In this document: positions 619 through 62,261 of the stretch, piece after piece
How positions within the stretch are numbered: position 1 is the first letter of the stretch
Layout: each line of letters starts with the position of its first letter
Assembly: GCA_017404985.1 (NCBI GenBank)
Contig: JAFRBK010000039.1
Location: forward strand, 60,325 to 124,324
Direction: 5' to 3'
Source of the DNA: Clostridia bacterium
GTDB taxonomy: Bacteria; Bacillota; Clostridia; Christensenellales; Aristaeellaceae
DNA: 64,000 nt
The notes under the pieces: model-generated
Seen by the model: the letters and a program-made list of their open reading frames with translations, nothing else
What the model was told of the DNA's origin: nothing
Databases searched by the model: none
Program-made: the position numbers and the translations under genes

Positions 619-1770
619 ATGACCAACCGAATCTATCTGGACAATGCAGCCACTACCTGCCTGGCGGAACCTGTGCGGGAGGCGATGATGCCCTGGCTGA
701 CGGCACAGTATGGAAATCCATCCAGCATTCACGGCACAGGGAGGGAAGCCCAGAAAGCGATTCATCTGGCCCGGTGCAAGGCAGCGGAAGCGATCGGGGC
801 TGAGCCCAGGGAGATTTTTTTTACTTCCGGCGGAAGTGAAAGCGATAACTGGGCACTGAAAGGATATGCGTTTGCCCACCGGACGGAAGGAAACCATATT
901 ATCACATCCTCCGTCGAGCACCATGCGGTGCTGCACACCTGCCGATGGCTGGAAAAACAGGGATTCCGGGTGACTTATCTCCCGACAGACGCGGAAGGAA
1001 GGGTGGACCCTGATACCGTGGAGAAGGCTATCACGGACCAGACCATCCTGATCAGCATTATGGCGGCCAACAATGAAATCGGCACCATGGAACCGGTTTC
1101 CCAGATCGGGGAAACGGCCGGGAAGCATGGCATTGCCTTTCATACGGATGCCGTCCAGGCGATCGGCGCGATGCCGCTGAACGTCAAGAAACTGCACGCT
1201 GACATGCTGAGCCTGAGCGCTCACAAATTTCACGGGCCGAAAGGAACCGGGCTTCTTTATATCCGGTCGGGAACCGTTTTGCAGCCCCTGATCCACGGAG
1301 GAGCGCAGGAAAGAGGCATGCGCGCCGGCACAGAAAATACAGCCGGCATCGTTGGGCTTGGGGAAGCGATCGCGCTTTGTACGAAAGACATGGAAGAAAA
1401 GAACCGGCGCATTGCCTGCCTCCGGGATGAGCTGACGGAAGGCCTGCTGCGGCGCATTCCGGATTCCTGCCTGAACGGGCCGCGCCGGGACCGGCTTCCC
1501 GGAAACTGCCATTTGTCCTTCCGGGGCATTGAAGGGGAAGCGCTGCTGCTTCGGCTGGATTTGGCCGGAATTGCCGCTTCCGGCGGGAGCGCCTGTACAT
1601 CCGGCAGCCCGGAGCCGAGCCATGTCATGCGGGCCATCGGCGCCGATGACGAAAGGACAAAGGGAAGCGTCCGGTTTACGCTCAGCGACGAAACGAAAAA
1701 AGAAGAGCTGGATGAAGTGCTGCGCATATTGCCGCCGCTGGTGGAAGAAATGAGGCGCTTAAGAACATAA
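619..1770 (+). CDS. Cysteine desulfurase (NifS/IscS class)
   Basis: A PLP enzyme of 383 residues that moves sulfur from cysteine to its own Cys persulfide for Fe-S clusters or tRNA thiolation. The start MTNRIYLDNAATT is the family signature. The PLP lysine lies in SAHKFHGPKGTG (about residue 200), His/Asp contacts in FHTDAVQA, and the sulfur-carrying cysteine in GGSACTSGSPEPSHVM (about 325), within a long IscS-like loop. The length matches the family. No iscU, mnmA or thiI is adjacent, so the acceptor cannot be named. A GCGAGG site precedes the ATG. Probably transcribed with trmL and the small membrane gene. Confidence 0.93.
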   Translation: MTNRIYLDNAATTCLAEPVREAMMPWLTAQYGNPSSIHGTGREAQKAIHLARCKAAEAIGAEPREIFFTSGGSESDNWALKGYAFAHRTEGNHIITSSVEHHAVLHTCRWLEKQGFRVTYLPTDAEGRVDPDTVEKAITDQTILISIMAANNEIGTMEPVSQIGETAGKHGIAFHTDAVQAIGAMPLNVKKLHADMLSLSAHKFHGPKGTGLLYIRSGTVLQPLIHGGAQERGMRAGTENTAGIVGLGEAIALCTKDMEEKNRRIACLRDELTEGLLRRIPDSCLNGPRRDRLPGNCHLSFRGIEGEALLLRLDLAGIAASGGSACTSGSPEPSHVMRAIGADDERTKGSVRFTLSDETKKEELDEVLRILPPLVEEMRRLRT

Positions 1771-58784: not shown

Positions 58785-59159
58785 ATGTCCAAAAACCAAT
58801 GGGAAGATCGGCTTGCCGAACGGGAGAAAAACCAGCGCTGGCTTGAAGAACGGTTCTATGACCTTGACTATCCCGGGCTGTATCTCGGGGACGAGATGAA
58901 TACGTTCCACTTTGACTGGGACAGGGCCATCCGCGAAAACCGAATCGGGGAACATTTCCGCATTGCCCTGATGAACCTGTGCACATCCCAACTCACCTTT
59001 GCCGCGCCGGCTGTCATGCTGTTTTATGAACAGCTTCATGCGTATGATGCGAGCTGGGTCGTTGAGCGGTCCTTTTGCCCGCCCACAGCGAATAACCAAA
59101 AACGGATCAGATTTAACCCGCATAAAATCATCCTTGCAATTTTGCCGGAAATTGTGTAA
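58785..59159 (+). pseudogene. Truncated gene, resembles the N-terminus of a B12-type radical SAM protein
   Basis: 124 codons. Residues 1-103 read as the start of a larger enzyme: ERFYDLDYPGLYLGDEMNT, HFDWDRA, FRIALMNLCTSQLTFAAPAV and WVVERSFCPPTANN fit, from memory, the N-terminal domain of uncharacterised B12-binding-like radical SAM proteins. No CxxxCxxC cluster follows. From about 59095 the sequence turns AT-rich (RIRFNPHKIILAILPEIV) and stops. The break therefore looks like a recombination point. The stop overlaps the -10 box of the RNA gene that follows. It could still be expressed as a short protein. Upstream, the ribosome site GAGGGGAG is good. Confidence 0.55.
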
Positions 59160-59162
59160 AGT
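59134..59162 (+). promoter_or_regulatory. Promoter for the pseudoknotted RNA
   Basis: TTGCAA (59134-59139), 17 bases, TAAAGT (59157-59162). The predicted start at about 59169 falls two bases before the closing stem of the RNA. Confidence 0.55.
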
Positions 59163-59168
59163 GATTCA

Positions 59169-59301
59169 GTGAGAAGGGTGCGGCGCAAGCCGCGTTCCCA
59201 GCGGATCAGACAGGTCTTCCATGGAAAAGGCTTTGGGAACAGCCGAAGACTGAAGCTGATATTGTAACGCCAAGGCGTGAAAGACTCCCTTCTCATTTTT
59301 T
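59169..59301 (+). ncRNA. Candidate structured small RNA with a pseudoknot
   Basis: About 133 bases. GAGAAGGG (59171-59178) pairs with CCCTTCTC (59287-59294), which is followed by ATTTTTT, so the closing stem is also the terminator. Inside: a GCGGC-GCAA-GCCGC hairpin (59180-59193); a composite arm made by ATCAG/CTGAT (59205-59209 with 59256-59260), GTCTTC/GAAGAC (59214-59219 with 59245-59250) and GGCT/AGCC (59229-59232 with 59241-59244); and an ACGC-CAAG-GCGT hairpin (59267-59278). The apical loop TTGGGAAC is complementary over seven bases to GTTCCCA (59194-59200), giving a pseudoknot. There is no downstream gene on this strand, so it is not a leader. I do not recognise the family; it does not read as SRP, 6S, tmRNA, RNase P or a known riboswitch. 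Confidence 0.6.
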
Positions 59302-59314
59302 GATGCATGAAGAA

Positions 59315-59341
59315 ACGGCCCGCAGCATTCCTGCGGGCCGT
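59315..59341. terminator. Bidirectional hairpin between the RNA and the reverse transcriptase
   Basis: ACGGCCCGCAG and CTGCGGGCCGT form an 11-bp perfect stem around a five-base loop; TTTCTTC follows on the minus strand and TTTACC on the plus strand. It probably ends the reverse transcriptase transcript. Confidence 0.75.
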
Positions 59342-59374
59342 TTACCTTACACGCGTGTGTTCCGACGGGAAAAC

Positions 59375-60622
59375 TTACAGCCAGTGTTCGGGATCAACAT
59401 GGTAATATGCATGAACCAGGCTGCGGTACCCGAGAGCCTGCAGATCCTCATAGCGGACGTTGTACCTCCGCTTGTGCATGCTGCCGTTCATGACCAGGCG
59501 GATGGCATCCTGCACGTACCGGTCGACCTGGTTCAGCCCTTCCGTGGTGGTGATAATCGGGAAATACCAGCGGGCCCAGCACAGCTCATGGGGCAAAAAG
59601 GTTCCGAAGAAAACACGGTTACAGAATCTGACCATCTTTTCGCCGACAACCCTGTCTTCCAGATGCGCCCGCTTTTTGTAACGCAGGAGGCGGTTGGCCC
59701 GAATGCGGATTTTCCGCTTGATTTTTTCGACAGCATGGTCGGAAAGGTCCACCAGGCCGTTGGAAACCTGGAAGCCCAGGATTTCCACCGATCCACCGGG
59801 CTCGATCAGCTCGGTTTTGTTCGGATTGGTATAAAGCTGCTTTTCATCCAGAATCCCATAGAACTTTTTCAGGTAGGCTTCCGCTTCCTCCCTGTCCCTG
59901 GCCAGGATGACAATGTCATCGGAATACCGGCAGTAAAGCGGGGAACGCATATTGAAATACCAGTCCATCTCCATGAGATAGACATTCATGAAATAATTCG
60001 CTACCGGAAGGCCGCCCAGGCCGCCGGGCTCGCAGGCAACCACGGAGCCGTCCGGCTCGATGCATTCCCGGCGAAGGAGCAGGAATTTCAGCAGGCCGAG
60101 AAGGGCGGGGTCATTCGGCCACATCTCTTCCAGCCGGGGGATGATCTTTTCCGGCACAATGGAACCGACATAGTTGGACACATCTGTCTTGATGATCCAG
60201 AAACGGTCCAGGTTGTGGAAACTGCGGATCTTTTTCAGAAAATCCTTGGCATGCACATTCCGGCGGAAGGAATAAAGGCCGGGAGGGAACATGGTGCTGT
60301 CATAGTCATGCAGGATCCAGGAGACCATTCGGAGAATATACAGGTCCCGGCCCTTCAGGGCATACACATCCCTTTTTTTGCCGGAGGCATTTTTGGCAAT
60401 CCGGTAGTGAAAAGGCGCGGAGAAGAAATAATCTCCTTTTTTCAGCCGCTCGAGATCGGCCGGGTATTCTTCGCTGTACAGGTAGGCTTCCATTTCCGCA
60501 TGCTGGTCCGGGTCATGCTTCTGCTTGCCGGTTTCAACCTGATGAGCCAGGAAAGATGAAATTTTCTCCTTGTCGGCGGCAAGGTCGAGTACGCCGGGAG
60601 CGGGTGCCTGAATCTGAGTCAA
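59375..60622 (-). CDS. Orphan reverse transcriptase
   Basis: 415 residues. The polymerase core is clear: motif A WIIKTDVSNYVGSI (Asp147), motif B GGLGGLPVANYFMNVYL, motif C CRYSDDIVIL (Asp235, Asp236), motif D/E with EILGFQVSNG, and a basic thumb-like region (KRKIRIRANRLLRYKKR). Motif B lacks the usual QGxxxSP form. There is no maturase X or endonuclease domain, so it is not a standard group II intron protein. The first 90 residues (SAPFHYRIAKNASGKKRDVY) resemble the entry motif of retron, DGR and 'unknown group' enzymes. The start is TTG with a strong GGAGGTGA seven bases before it. It faces the candidate RNA convergently. The role is unknown; phage defence is one option. Confidence 0.88.
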   Translation of the reverse strand: MTQIQAPAPGVLDLAADKEKISSFLAHQVETGKQKHDPDQHAEMEAYLYSEEYPADLERLKKGDYFFSAPFHYRIAKNASGKKRDVYALKGRDLYILRMVSWILHDYDSTMFPPGLYSFRRNVHAKDFLKKIRSFHNLDRFWIIKTDVSNYVGSIVPEKIIPRLEEMWPNDPALLGLLKFLLLRRECIEPDGSVVACEPGGLGGLPVANYFMNVYLMEMDWYFNMRSPLYCRYSDDIVILARDREEAEAYLKKFYGILDEKQLYTNPNKTELIEPGGSVEILGFQVSNGLVDLSDHAVEKIKRKIRIRANRLLRYKKRAHLEDRVVGEKMVRFCNRVFFGTFLPHELCWARWYFPIITTTEGLNQVDRYVQDAIRLVMNGSMHKRRYNVRYEDLQALGYRSLVHAYYHVDPEHWL

Positions 60623-60848: not shown

Positions 60849-61613
60849 ATGTTTGAACTGAGGAAACCGAACGTTATTCCGATCAATGACCATATCTGGC
60901 TGCTGGACGACAATCATGAGGCGACCTGTTATGTCGTGGCCGGGACGGAATACGCGGCCGTCATCGATACATCCATCGGCCTGAGCAACATCCGGGAAGC
61001 GGCTGAATCGCTGACATCGCTTCCGCTGATCTGCATCAATACCCATGGCCATGGAGACCATATGGGCGGAAACTGGAGCTTTGACAAAGCGTACATGAAT
61101 CTGGCGGATCTGCCCCTGGCCGAAGAACATTTCCATCATCCGGAGGTTCAGAAAGGGATAAAACAGCACGGCATCCACTATCCGCCTTTTGAGCATATTG
61201 AAGACGGGCGTGTTTTTGATCTTGGCGGCGTGAAACTGGAAGCGATCTATTTTCCCGGGCATACGGCAGGCGAAATTGTCCTGCTGGATCGGCAGGACCG
61301 GATTCTGTTCGCCGGGGACGGGATTATCCAGCATCTGTGGCTACAGCTGAAGGAATCCTTACCGGTCAGGACGCAGATTCAGAGCATGGAACGGCTGCTG
61401 CCGCTGCGGAATATCTTCGACATGATCCTGCACGGACATAATCAAACCCCAAATGGCATTGAACTGTTTGATACGCTGCTGGAAGCGCTGAAGGATCTGG
61501 AGGCGGGGAACACGGCGGATGATATTGATTATGAGTGGAACGGAAACATCAGCAAAGCCCATCCATATCAGCCGGAGGACCGACGGATTGTCTATAAAGA
61601 GAGTGGAGAGTGA
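60849..61613 (+). CDS. Metallo-beta-lactamase fold hydrolase (copy 2)
   Basis: 254 residues, cytoplasmic. The metal motif is NTHGHGDHMGGN (HxHxDH), with FPGHTAGEI, FAGDGI and LHGHNQTPNG supplying further ligands. It is a paralogue of the gene at 30120-30908: both start with a short strand then IYL/IWL-DDNHEAT-like sequence and share HLW[ML]QL, but the identity is moderate. The substrate is unknown. AGGAAGGAAG precedes the ATG. A short-repeat array follows the stop. Confidence 0.87.
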   Translation: MFELRKPNVIPINDHIWLLDDNHEATCYVVAGTEYAAVIDTSIGLSNIREAAESLTSLPLICINTHGHGDHMGGNWSFDKAYMNLADLPLAEEHFHHPEVQKGIKQHGIHYPPFEHIEDGRVFDLGGVKLEAIYFPGHTAGEIVLLDRQDRILFAGDGIIQHLWLQLKESLPVRTQIQSMERLLPLRNIFDMILHGHNQTPNGIELFDTLLEALKDLEAGNTADDIDYEWNGNISKAHPYQPEDRRIVYKESGE

Positions 61614-61650
61614 AGAGGGAAGAGTGAAGAGGGAAGAGTGAAGAGGGAAG
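61598..61650. repeat. Tandem GAGAGTGAAGAGGGA-type repeat array
   Basis: The unit AGAGTGAAGAGGGA recurs about three times after GAGTGGAGAGTGA, overlapping the last codons of the MBL gene. Read on the other strand the units are CACTCT/CCACTCTC, related to the array at 29961-30030. Confidence 0.75.
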
Positions 61651-61651
61651 T

Positions 61652-62261
61652 TTAGTTGTACCTGACCCGAACCTTAATGCGGAAGTTGTCGACCATTGGG
61701 ATTATGCCAAATTCGCTGTAAGCCGCTTTCTCTTCCAGGGTGCCGCCCACCAGCCCGGCGTCCTGCATCTCCTTCCAATCCTGCCATTCTCCGTTGTCTT
61801 TCATGAAGCTTTCTCCCGGATTGACAACGACGTTGGGCGGAAGCCGACATAACCGTCAGCTTCGGGATGGACCAGGTATCTTTCAGGACCCAGGACGAAG
61901 GCTGCATCCGGGCGGACTTTCCTTCCGTGTCCGGGATTGTCCAGTCATCCCCTGAATACCAGAGCAGGTAGTCTCCGGCTTCAATCATCGCCTGCTTTTT
62001 CTTCAGTTCCGCCTCCGCTTCCGCCCGGAGATCCTCCTCCGTGAAGCCCGGATCATCGCCATCCGCCGGAACAGTTTTATCCTCATTTTCCTGCATGTAG
62101 TCTTTGATCCATTGTTCCGGTTCCTTCTCAACCACCCAGGCTTCCGGCCGTGCTTCCCGGCCGTGATACGGATACGCGCTTTCGTCCACCGGGCCGCTGC
62201 CGGAAGAGAACAGGACGGGAACCATATCCGCGCCGCCGCTGGACATTGCTCCTCTTATCAT
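61652..62261 (-). pseudogene. Frameshifted acidic protein gene, function unknown
   Basis: The minus-strand frame from 62261 runs as MVPVLFSSGSGPVDESAY, then an acidic Glu-rich helix (about 60-95) and WYSGDDWTIPD until about 61845. There sense switches to another frame: RLPPNVVVNPGESFMKD, then EWQDWKEMQDAGLVGG and IIPMVDNFRIKVRVRYN with a stop at 61652. A single-base loss near 61840-61850 (around CAACGTCG) explains this. The reconstructed C-terminus looks like a well-formed protein, so this is a recent lesion or a sequencing error. No family was recognised. There is no good ribosome site, so the 5' end may also be missing. Confidence 0.6.

Follow-up and report, generated by a model that had tools for sequence, protein, structure and literature searches.

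What is the small structured RNA that faces a reverse transcriptase gene in this 64,000-nucleotide stretch of a Clostridia bacterium genome (the whole of which we call the window), and does it work with that enzyme or only lie next to it? A sequence-only reading had taken it for a pseudoknotted RNA of no known class that could be either a template or partner of the reverse transcriptase or an independent regulator. We find that the RNA at positions 59170-59296 of the plus strand is real and folds as earlier described, 7-bp pseudoknot included, and that it belongs to a family of RNAs with conserved pairing that lie beside UG26 reverse transcriptase genes. Our overall explanation, to which we assign a probability of roughly three in four, is that this stretch encodes a non-coding RNA that is the dedicated partner of the UG26 enzyme next to it and provides a probable template for repeat DNA whose synthesis would be primed by a tyrosine of the protein.

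The convergent neighbour (59375-60622, minus strand) encodes a protein of 415 amino acids with a YSDD active site and the C-terminus GYRSLVHAYY, and both Pfam RVT_1 and PADLOC RT_UG26 confirm the reverse transcriptase that had been noticed there. It is a UG26 reverse transcriptase, this being the best profile match across the whole protein (366 bits, E 5e-110; residues 11-409 of 415 against profile positions 3-395 of 398). The next PADLOC UG/DRT profiles are UG27 (96 bits), UG17, which is DRT10 (79), UG4 (74), DRT3a (59) and DRT9 (58), with generic RT (88) and Cas1_IIIb (70) profiles interspersed in that ranking. An AlphaFold2 model of the enzyme covers 405 of its 415 residues at a pLDDT of 91.6; submitted to Foldseek, it retrieved group II intron enzymes first and DRT9 chains at ranks 6 and 7. 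Two tyrosines at the C-terminus, Y396 and Y397, are near-invariant in an alignment of 19 UG26 proteins. UG26 genes are sparse at every level sampled: with the window's own genome counted, they occur in 4 of 45 genomes of the genus (E<=1e-40), 16 of 308 of the family (E<=1e-50), 13 of 396 sampled from the order and 2 of 348 sampled from the phylum (both E<=1e-60). A second UG26 gene is present in the window's own genome, at locus L008 (G000:C29:67580-71770). A single-protein search of genome contigs and viral contigs returned no relative of the enzyme; an alignment-based search of genome contigs yielded 542. UG26 is listed among the reverse transcriptases of cold-seep viruses in the available part of one report (PMC10504277).

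The RNA, which we describe as the window type of UG26-associated ncRNA and a diverged relative of Rfam RT-5, extends over 59170-59301 on the plus strand. Positions 59170-59296 match covariance model R2 at 110.6 bits, a score that includes its own seed, as R2 was built only from the window RNA and six copies at loci L016-L018, making the window sequence one of seven. Folding brings the ends together in a closing stem, its 5' strand GAGAAGGG at 59171-59178 and its 3' strand CCCTTCTC at 59287-59294, the latter followed by an A and the six T of the U tract (59296-59301). The first internal hairpin, GCGGC-GCAA-GCCGC (59180-59193), is also predicted by folding, and 89% of the cells for its four outer pairs are paired in alignment A5. 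There follow the first pseudoknot strand, GTTCCCA (59194-59200, partner 59234-59240); the 5' strand of a lower helix, ATCAG (59205-59209, partner 59256-59260), in a position like that of a lower helix of Rfam RT-5; and the 5' strand of an upper helix, GGTCTTC (59213-59219, partner 59245-59251), with compensatory changes in A5 and A6. The signature hairpin GGCT-TTGGGAAC-AGCC (59229-59244) has an 8-nt loop whose last seven bases (59234-59240) form the second pseudoknot strand. A last hairpin, ACGC-CAAG-GCGT (59267-59278), predicted by folding and not conserved as such in L016-L018, stands immediately 5' of the proposed template loop GAAAGACT (59279-59286), which corresponds to nucleotides 110-117 if the RNA starts at 59170. 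The segments 59165-59301 and 59170-59298 fold with z scores of -3.28 and -2.86, each beating 200 of 200 dinucleotide shuffles; eight relatives folded likewise gave z scores from -1.81 to -3.46, and between 0 and 10 of 200 shuffles were equally good. The closing stem, the internal helices, the seven-base loop-to-upstream pseudoknot and the terminal stem ending in a U tract, all claimed from the letters of the window, are present where they had been placed.

The promoter claimed for this RNA, TTGCAA (59134-59139) and TAAAGT (59157-59162) across a 17-nt spacer (together 59134-59162, plus strand), is likewise found in the sequence. It is weak by consensus, with 8 of 12 consensus bases by hand count, and a consensus promoter scan of 59000-59450 with a limit of 9 of 12 listed none; yet six homologous copies in three other genomes carry TTGCA[T/C]-17-TATAAT at the equivalent position. 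An open frame of 124 amino acids (58785-59159, plus strand), with no match in Pfam or PADLOC, ends just 5' of the RNA, and its end overlaps the RNA promoter. Between the convergent genes lies a GC-rich hairpin (59313-59343) that attracted several sub-threshold Rfam matches on both strands; it is probably the shared terminator of both genes, and the terminator scan did not list it. Further along, at 61610-61652, short tandem gaagaggg/gaagagt units are visible by eye directly after a metallo-beta-lactamase-fold gene.

The nearest UG26 enzymes found, judged by the tree, are those of L016, L017 and L018 in another genus, with 63% (L016) and 62% (L018) identity to that of the window. All three loci carry two tandem RNA homologues, which share 73-76% identity with the window RNA and lie downstream of the enzyme gene on the opposite strand, hence convergent as in the window. 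The pairs lie at about 1100-1217 and 1300-1422, each copy with its own promoter; a few bases before CUGAAAAU vary strongly among these copies, the remainder being well conserved. In L006 and L008 a diverged copy lies downstream and shares the strand of the gene (in L008 at 1261-1391, minus strand). A DNA search of 100 genomes gave two matches, the window itself and a 26-base match (E 0.009).

Conservation of pairing was assessed within and beyond this clade. The window clade alone varies little, with two-sided changes in 3 of 34 pairs; all seven closing-stem pairs of 59172-59178 are kept, invariant, in 7 of 7 aligned copies. Adding L006 and L008 raises the number with two-sided changes to 10 of 34, where shuffles give 4.6, and the pseudoknot accounts for three of these. 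A structured RNA is also found immediately upstream of the gene, on the same strand, at many other UG26 loci. In 20 such upstream RNAs 98% of cells pair, and two-sided changes occur in 26 of 46 pairs where shuffles give 9.3; their 7-bp pseudoknot is 100% paired, with two-sided changes in two pairs. A hairpin with an 8-nt loop, the last seven loop bases paired to the 5' linker, recurs in 26 of 28 members against 5.5 expected. The two outside this pattern are L017b, which has one mismatch, and L019, which the fixed pattern missed and in which an unguided search found a 7-bp pairing; in L015 the fixed pattern fell on a shifted site, and the canonical pairing is also present. The same unguided search chose other pairings in L010, L012, L022, L029 and L031; for L017b, L023 and L025 it returned no pairing. 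Within the single window sequence the pseudoknot is unremarkable, an equal being held by 9% of shuffles, and it is therefore conservation that constitutes the evidence for it. Base pairs are indeed conserved in the homologues, and the comparison indicates that compensatory changes maintain them, the pseudoknot included.

Covariance model R1, built from 20 upstream RNAs, matches 75 of 80 UG26 loci, or 55 of 60 after removal of its 20 seeds. These 80 are the loci whose enzymes, among the 542 relatives, are most similar to one of the upstream type, an uneven sample that for this reason favours upstream RNAs, and some of them nearly duplicate one another or members of a separate 31-locus set (L034 and L027, for example). 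Three of the missed loci (L047, L075 and L107) have less than 160 nt upstream, cut by contig ends; L076 and L097 are genuine misses and, like L013 of the smaller set, possess UG26 with no RNA match in the available flanks. Among the 31 loci, 16 have the R1 RNA upstream on the gene's strand. Other R1 matches lie upstream and divergent in L005 (E 9e-5), downstream on the same strand in L006 and L008 (E 1.5e-4 and 2.1e-4), downstream and convergent in L007 (E 0.0065), and upstream on the same strand in L019 (E 0.021). R1 has no match in ten of the 31 (L004, L009, L013, L016, L017, L018, L020, L021, L026 and L033), and the window locus is one of these ten. L009, L020 and L021 encode distant enzymes (141-196 bits), L033 shows a similar RNA by eye only, and the genome of L026 has a sub-threshold RT-5 match 2.3 kb upstream that R1 also finds (E 0.0005).

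The upstream UG26 RNA is Rfam RT-5 (RF03026), whose model matches it at 8 of 12 loci scanned with 48-100 bits, the curators' cut-off being 45.7 bits. The two share the signature hairpin, the upper and lower helices and the last hairpin. The printed model of 104 positions leaves out the 5' strand of the closing stem, beginning only beyond it, and stops within the first bases of the 3' strand; it is therefore without this long stem, which measures 9-21 bp at 24 loci sampled, and without the pseudoknot, which a covariance model cannot hold. The Rfam lower helix shows two-sided changes in 3 of 5 pairs, and a small UAC/GUA hairpin considered for the upstream RNAs was dropped; R1 still includes it. 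RT-5 scores fall under the cut-off in L005 (30.8 bits), L008 (26.3) and L006 (26.0), and L004, L007, L016, L018 and L019 have no RT-5 match at E<=5 (L017 lay outside the scan). The window RNA itself has no Rfam match at gathering score and no RT-5 match at E<=10. The Infernal search for a common housekeeping RNA gave none, the best of five matches at E<=10 within 59050-59400 being RsaE (E 0.067), mainly on the downstream hairpin. In ten chosen genomes RT-5 found nothing above its cut-off. At E<=1 it matched the UG26 loci of G003, G011 and G028 and the UG26 contig of G544; since two further matches lay away from UG26 (G283:C101 and G011:C6, E 0.27 and 0.57) and three of 14 control genomes also gave matches, matches of this strength prove little alone.

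The window type and the upstream type are joined through intermediates. R2 finds L008 (E 0.0002), L031 (0.0012), L007 (0.0028) and L006 (0.047), each time on the same stretch as R1, and the L031 RNA is of the upstream type; outside its seeds R2 returned nothing further at E<=10 in 182 kb. Because the two models meet on these four loci, the window RNA appears to share ancestry of sequence and structure with RT-5, the connection being an indirect one that runs through intermediates, several with E values of 0.0002-0.05. The window copy is thus a diverged RT-5 relative that stands outside the family by Rfam's cut-off, and it lies downstream and convergent, whereas RT-5-type RNA lies upstream of its gene. 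The earlier statement that the RNA fits no known class holds under Rfam's thresholds and gives way, by way of the intermediates, to a remote kinship with RT-5.

As to how such an RNA may work, we propose that its own promoter drives its transcription, that it takes up a closed fold of several helices which the loop-to-linker pseudoknot locks, and that it binds the UG26 reverse transcriptase. The short unpaired segment that separates the last hairpin from the closing stem would most likely be the template, copied repeatedly into short-repeat DNA, with priming probably by a conserved C-terminal tyrosine, as in DRT9 and DRT10. Judged from sequence, a partnership between RNA and enzyme is very probable; that the loop serves as template, a role suggested by the template positions of DRT10 and DRT9, is fairly likely. 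The locus has a trait of Class 2 DRT systems, a conserved structured RNA beside the enzyme, and the enzyme, which has profile similarity to UG17, DRT3a and DRT9, may fall in that class.

A close parallel in layout is DRT10 (UG17), for which the accessible parts of the source describe a 137-nt RNA beside the genes, a central stem with smaller stem-loops, and a 9-nt template near the 3' end, in a loop flanked by the last stem-loop and the closing stem; an A-B-A' repeat and protein priming from the C-terminus are also described (PMC12632851). The UG26 RNAs resemble it in RNA layout and in the place of the proposed template, and the UG26 systems may resemble it in an A-B-A' repeat (suggestive, in upstream RNAs) and in C-terminal priming. 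DRT10 differs in having a UG17 enzyme and a SLATT partner at the locus, whereas the window has UG26 and a convergent RNA, and the accessible text uses 'pseudoknot' of telomerase RNA only (PMC12632851). For DRT9 (UG28), the portion of the source at hand gives a short template, U4 at 123-126, about 8 Å from the active site, and implicates two C-terminal tyrosines as primers (PMC12483538). The proposed template position and the near-invariant C-terminal YY of UG26 are points of likeness; DRT9 has a conserved U4 template and a hexamer, whereas the window loop is without U4 and the L016-L018 loops have A4. DRT3a RNA, in the available text, carries its loop template, ACACAC, at a place comparable with that in DRT9 and DRT10 (PMC13174585). 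The window RNA is similar in the position of its proposed template and in lying downstream, and the system differs in that DRT3a works with a second, Class 1 enzyme, none of which was seen at the window. DRT2 likewise has a pseudoknotted RNA adjoining the enzyme and makes templated tandem repeats, but, according to the part of the source consulted, from a 280-nt RNA of other layout with a 120-nt template that builds a gene (PMC12039810).

Repeats within the loop bear on the template proposal. In the upstream RNAs the proposed loop begins [A/C]UUUAA, and its first bases often recur 8-9 nt on. Removal of 8 reverse-strand rows from the 83 of alignment A4 left 75 loops, of which 47 repeat at least three first bases, a count reached by 0 of 10,000 permutations (relatedness ignored), and 21 have no anchored repeat. 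Where the loop opens with C, the second copy has C in 23 of 23 cases; where it opens with A, the second copy has A in 30 of 51. Fisher's test of this A-A' coupling gave 8e-8 for all loops and 0.0056 for the 40 unique ones, or 5e-7 and 0.012 (34 unique) minus seven ambiguous loops. On the enzyme tree there are five joint changes (P 0.007), reduced to three (P 0.16) without those seven, and because of this fall in support we regard a DRT10-like A-B-A' repeat in the upstream RNAs as suggestive. The repeat in the window loop, GA-AA-GA, is of 2 nt only, with a chance of 0.41, and the L016-L018 loops have no anchored repeat and A4 instead; an A-B-A' repeat is not demonstrable in the window loop.

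This want of a convincing repeat in the window clade leaves room for another explanation, namely that the RNA is a required structural or regulatory cofactor, acting as assembly scaffold or inhibitor, and that the UG26 enzyme copies something else or works untemplated. Co-location and a conserved fold speak for partnership and not for templating, and a cofactor role would equally explain the conserved pseudoknot. We nevertheless consider it quite unlikely: DRT2, DRT3a, DRT9 and DRT10 all copy their RNA, as far as the available parts of the sources go (PMC12039810, PMC13174585, PMC12483538, PMC12632851), the loop 5' of the closing stem occupies the same relative place as the DRT9 and DRT10 templates, and the upstream RNAs do show repeat patterns in the loop. 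Extending the template reading, a bolder speculation is that RT-5 RNA and UG26 together form a telomerase-like adder of short repeats that works from a pseudoknot-anchored template loop. The window lineage would then be a two-component version that has no nuclease-like partner and in which the RNA gene has flipped to the far side of the enzyme gene, has been doubled in some genomes, and has swapped the UUUAA-type template for an A-rich one. The A-rich loops read GAAAGA in the window and GAAAAU in L016-L018, and in the telomerase-like reading such a template would give pyrimidine DNA such as (TTTC)n or poly-dT. We offer this extended scenario tentatively, with the odds against it.

In 84 of 111 loci the RNA is preceded by a gene of about 170 amino acids (tblastn), identified as PADLOC RTasCOG2852 in 15 of 15 tested. 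Among L034-L113, RTasCOG2852 lies beside the RT-5-like RNA and UG26, in most cases no more than 1.2 kb upstream of the latter gene. Its AlphaFold2 model (pLDDT 73.9) has a core of helix, three strands, helix, strand, helix, with an N-terminal part predicted at low confidence; Foldseek found no PDB match at E<=0.001, and a Pfam search of the partner protein gave nothing informative. By tblastn (E<=1e-3) there is no RTasCOG2852 in the window or in the available flanks of L004-L008 and L016-L019, that of L017 comprising 210 nt upstream only. As far as these flanks extend, the system of the window thus seems to have two components: it has the same enzyme as PADLOC's pairing of RT_UG26 with RTasCOG2852, and the partner was not found in the available flanks of window-clade loci. 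This absence could also be taken to mean that the system is decaying, its RNA and gene being remnants after loss of a nuclease-like partner gene. Such decay is very unlikely, given the open 415-aa frame with its YSDD and confident predicted fold, the conserved RNA pairing, the promoters conserved in relatives and the tandem copies kept in three genomes. Moreover, the missing gene need not signify decay, because seven other RNA-bearing loci (L015, L024, L029, L030, L032, L095 and L114) also show none in their available flanks.

The tie to UG26 was examined in genome samples under strict filters. R2 at E<=0.01 matched 4 of 308 family genomes, namely that of the window and those of L016-L018, in every case beside UG26. 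R1 at E<=0.001 matched 10 of 396 order genomes. Each of the ten belongs to the 13 that have UG26, and its match lies on the UG26 contig, within 1.4 kb of the gene. The three UG26 genomes without such a match are the window's own, G544 (a weak match 2.3 kb upstream) and G634 (a by-eye candidate only). The position and strand of the RNA relative to the gene vary among loci, yet adjacency is kept. Hence the partnership that the sequence-only reading had suggested is borne out by above-threshold matches confined to UG26-bearing genomes and contigs, the template role suggested alongside it being a prediction. An RNA antisense to the gene was considered and rejected, there being no overlap and a varying orientation. 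That the RNA acts independently, as a trans-acting or antisense small RNA and a chance neighbour of the reverse transcriptase with its own promoter, U tract and convergent orientation, is scarcely credible when above-threshold matches fall at UG26 loci only in both searches, the RNA does not overlap the gene and its orientation differs by clade; the independent regulator proposed earlier is accordingly disfavoured.

A limited literature search returned no functional study of UG26, no RNA described for UG26 and no paper naming RT-5. Within that scope, what is apparently new is the link between UG26 and RT-5, the closing stem together with the pseudoknot, and the clade that has diverged and moved. 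Defence reverse transcriptases of the DRT2, DRT3, DRT9 and DRT10 types write unusual DNA from small RNAs, and in one preprint the origin of telomerase is connected with DRT10 (PMC12632851). With regard to antiphage status, PADLOC files RT_UG26 under DRT, and an antiviral function for the present system is likely. Taken together, our findings tie UG26 to Rfam RT-5 and give the RNA a fuller anatomy, with an outer closing stem and a pseudoknot. This tie brings with it a predicted template loop and predicted priming tyrosines, and the diverged clade of the window can reveal which parts of the RNA matter.
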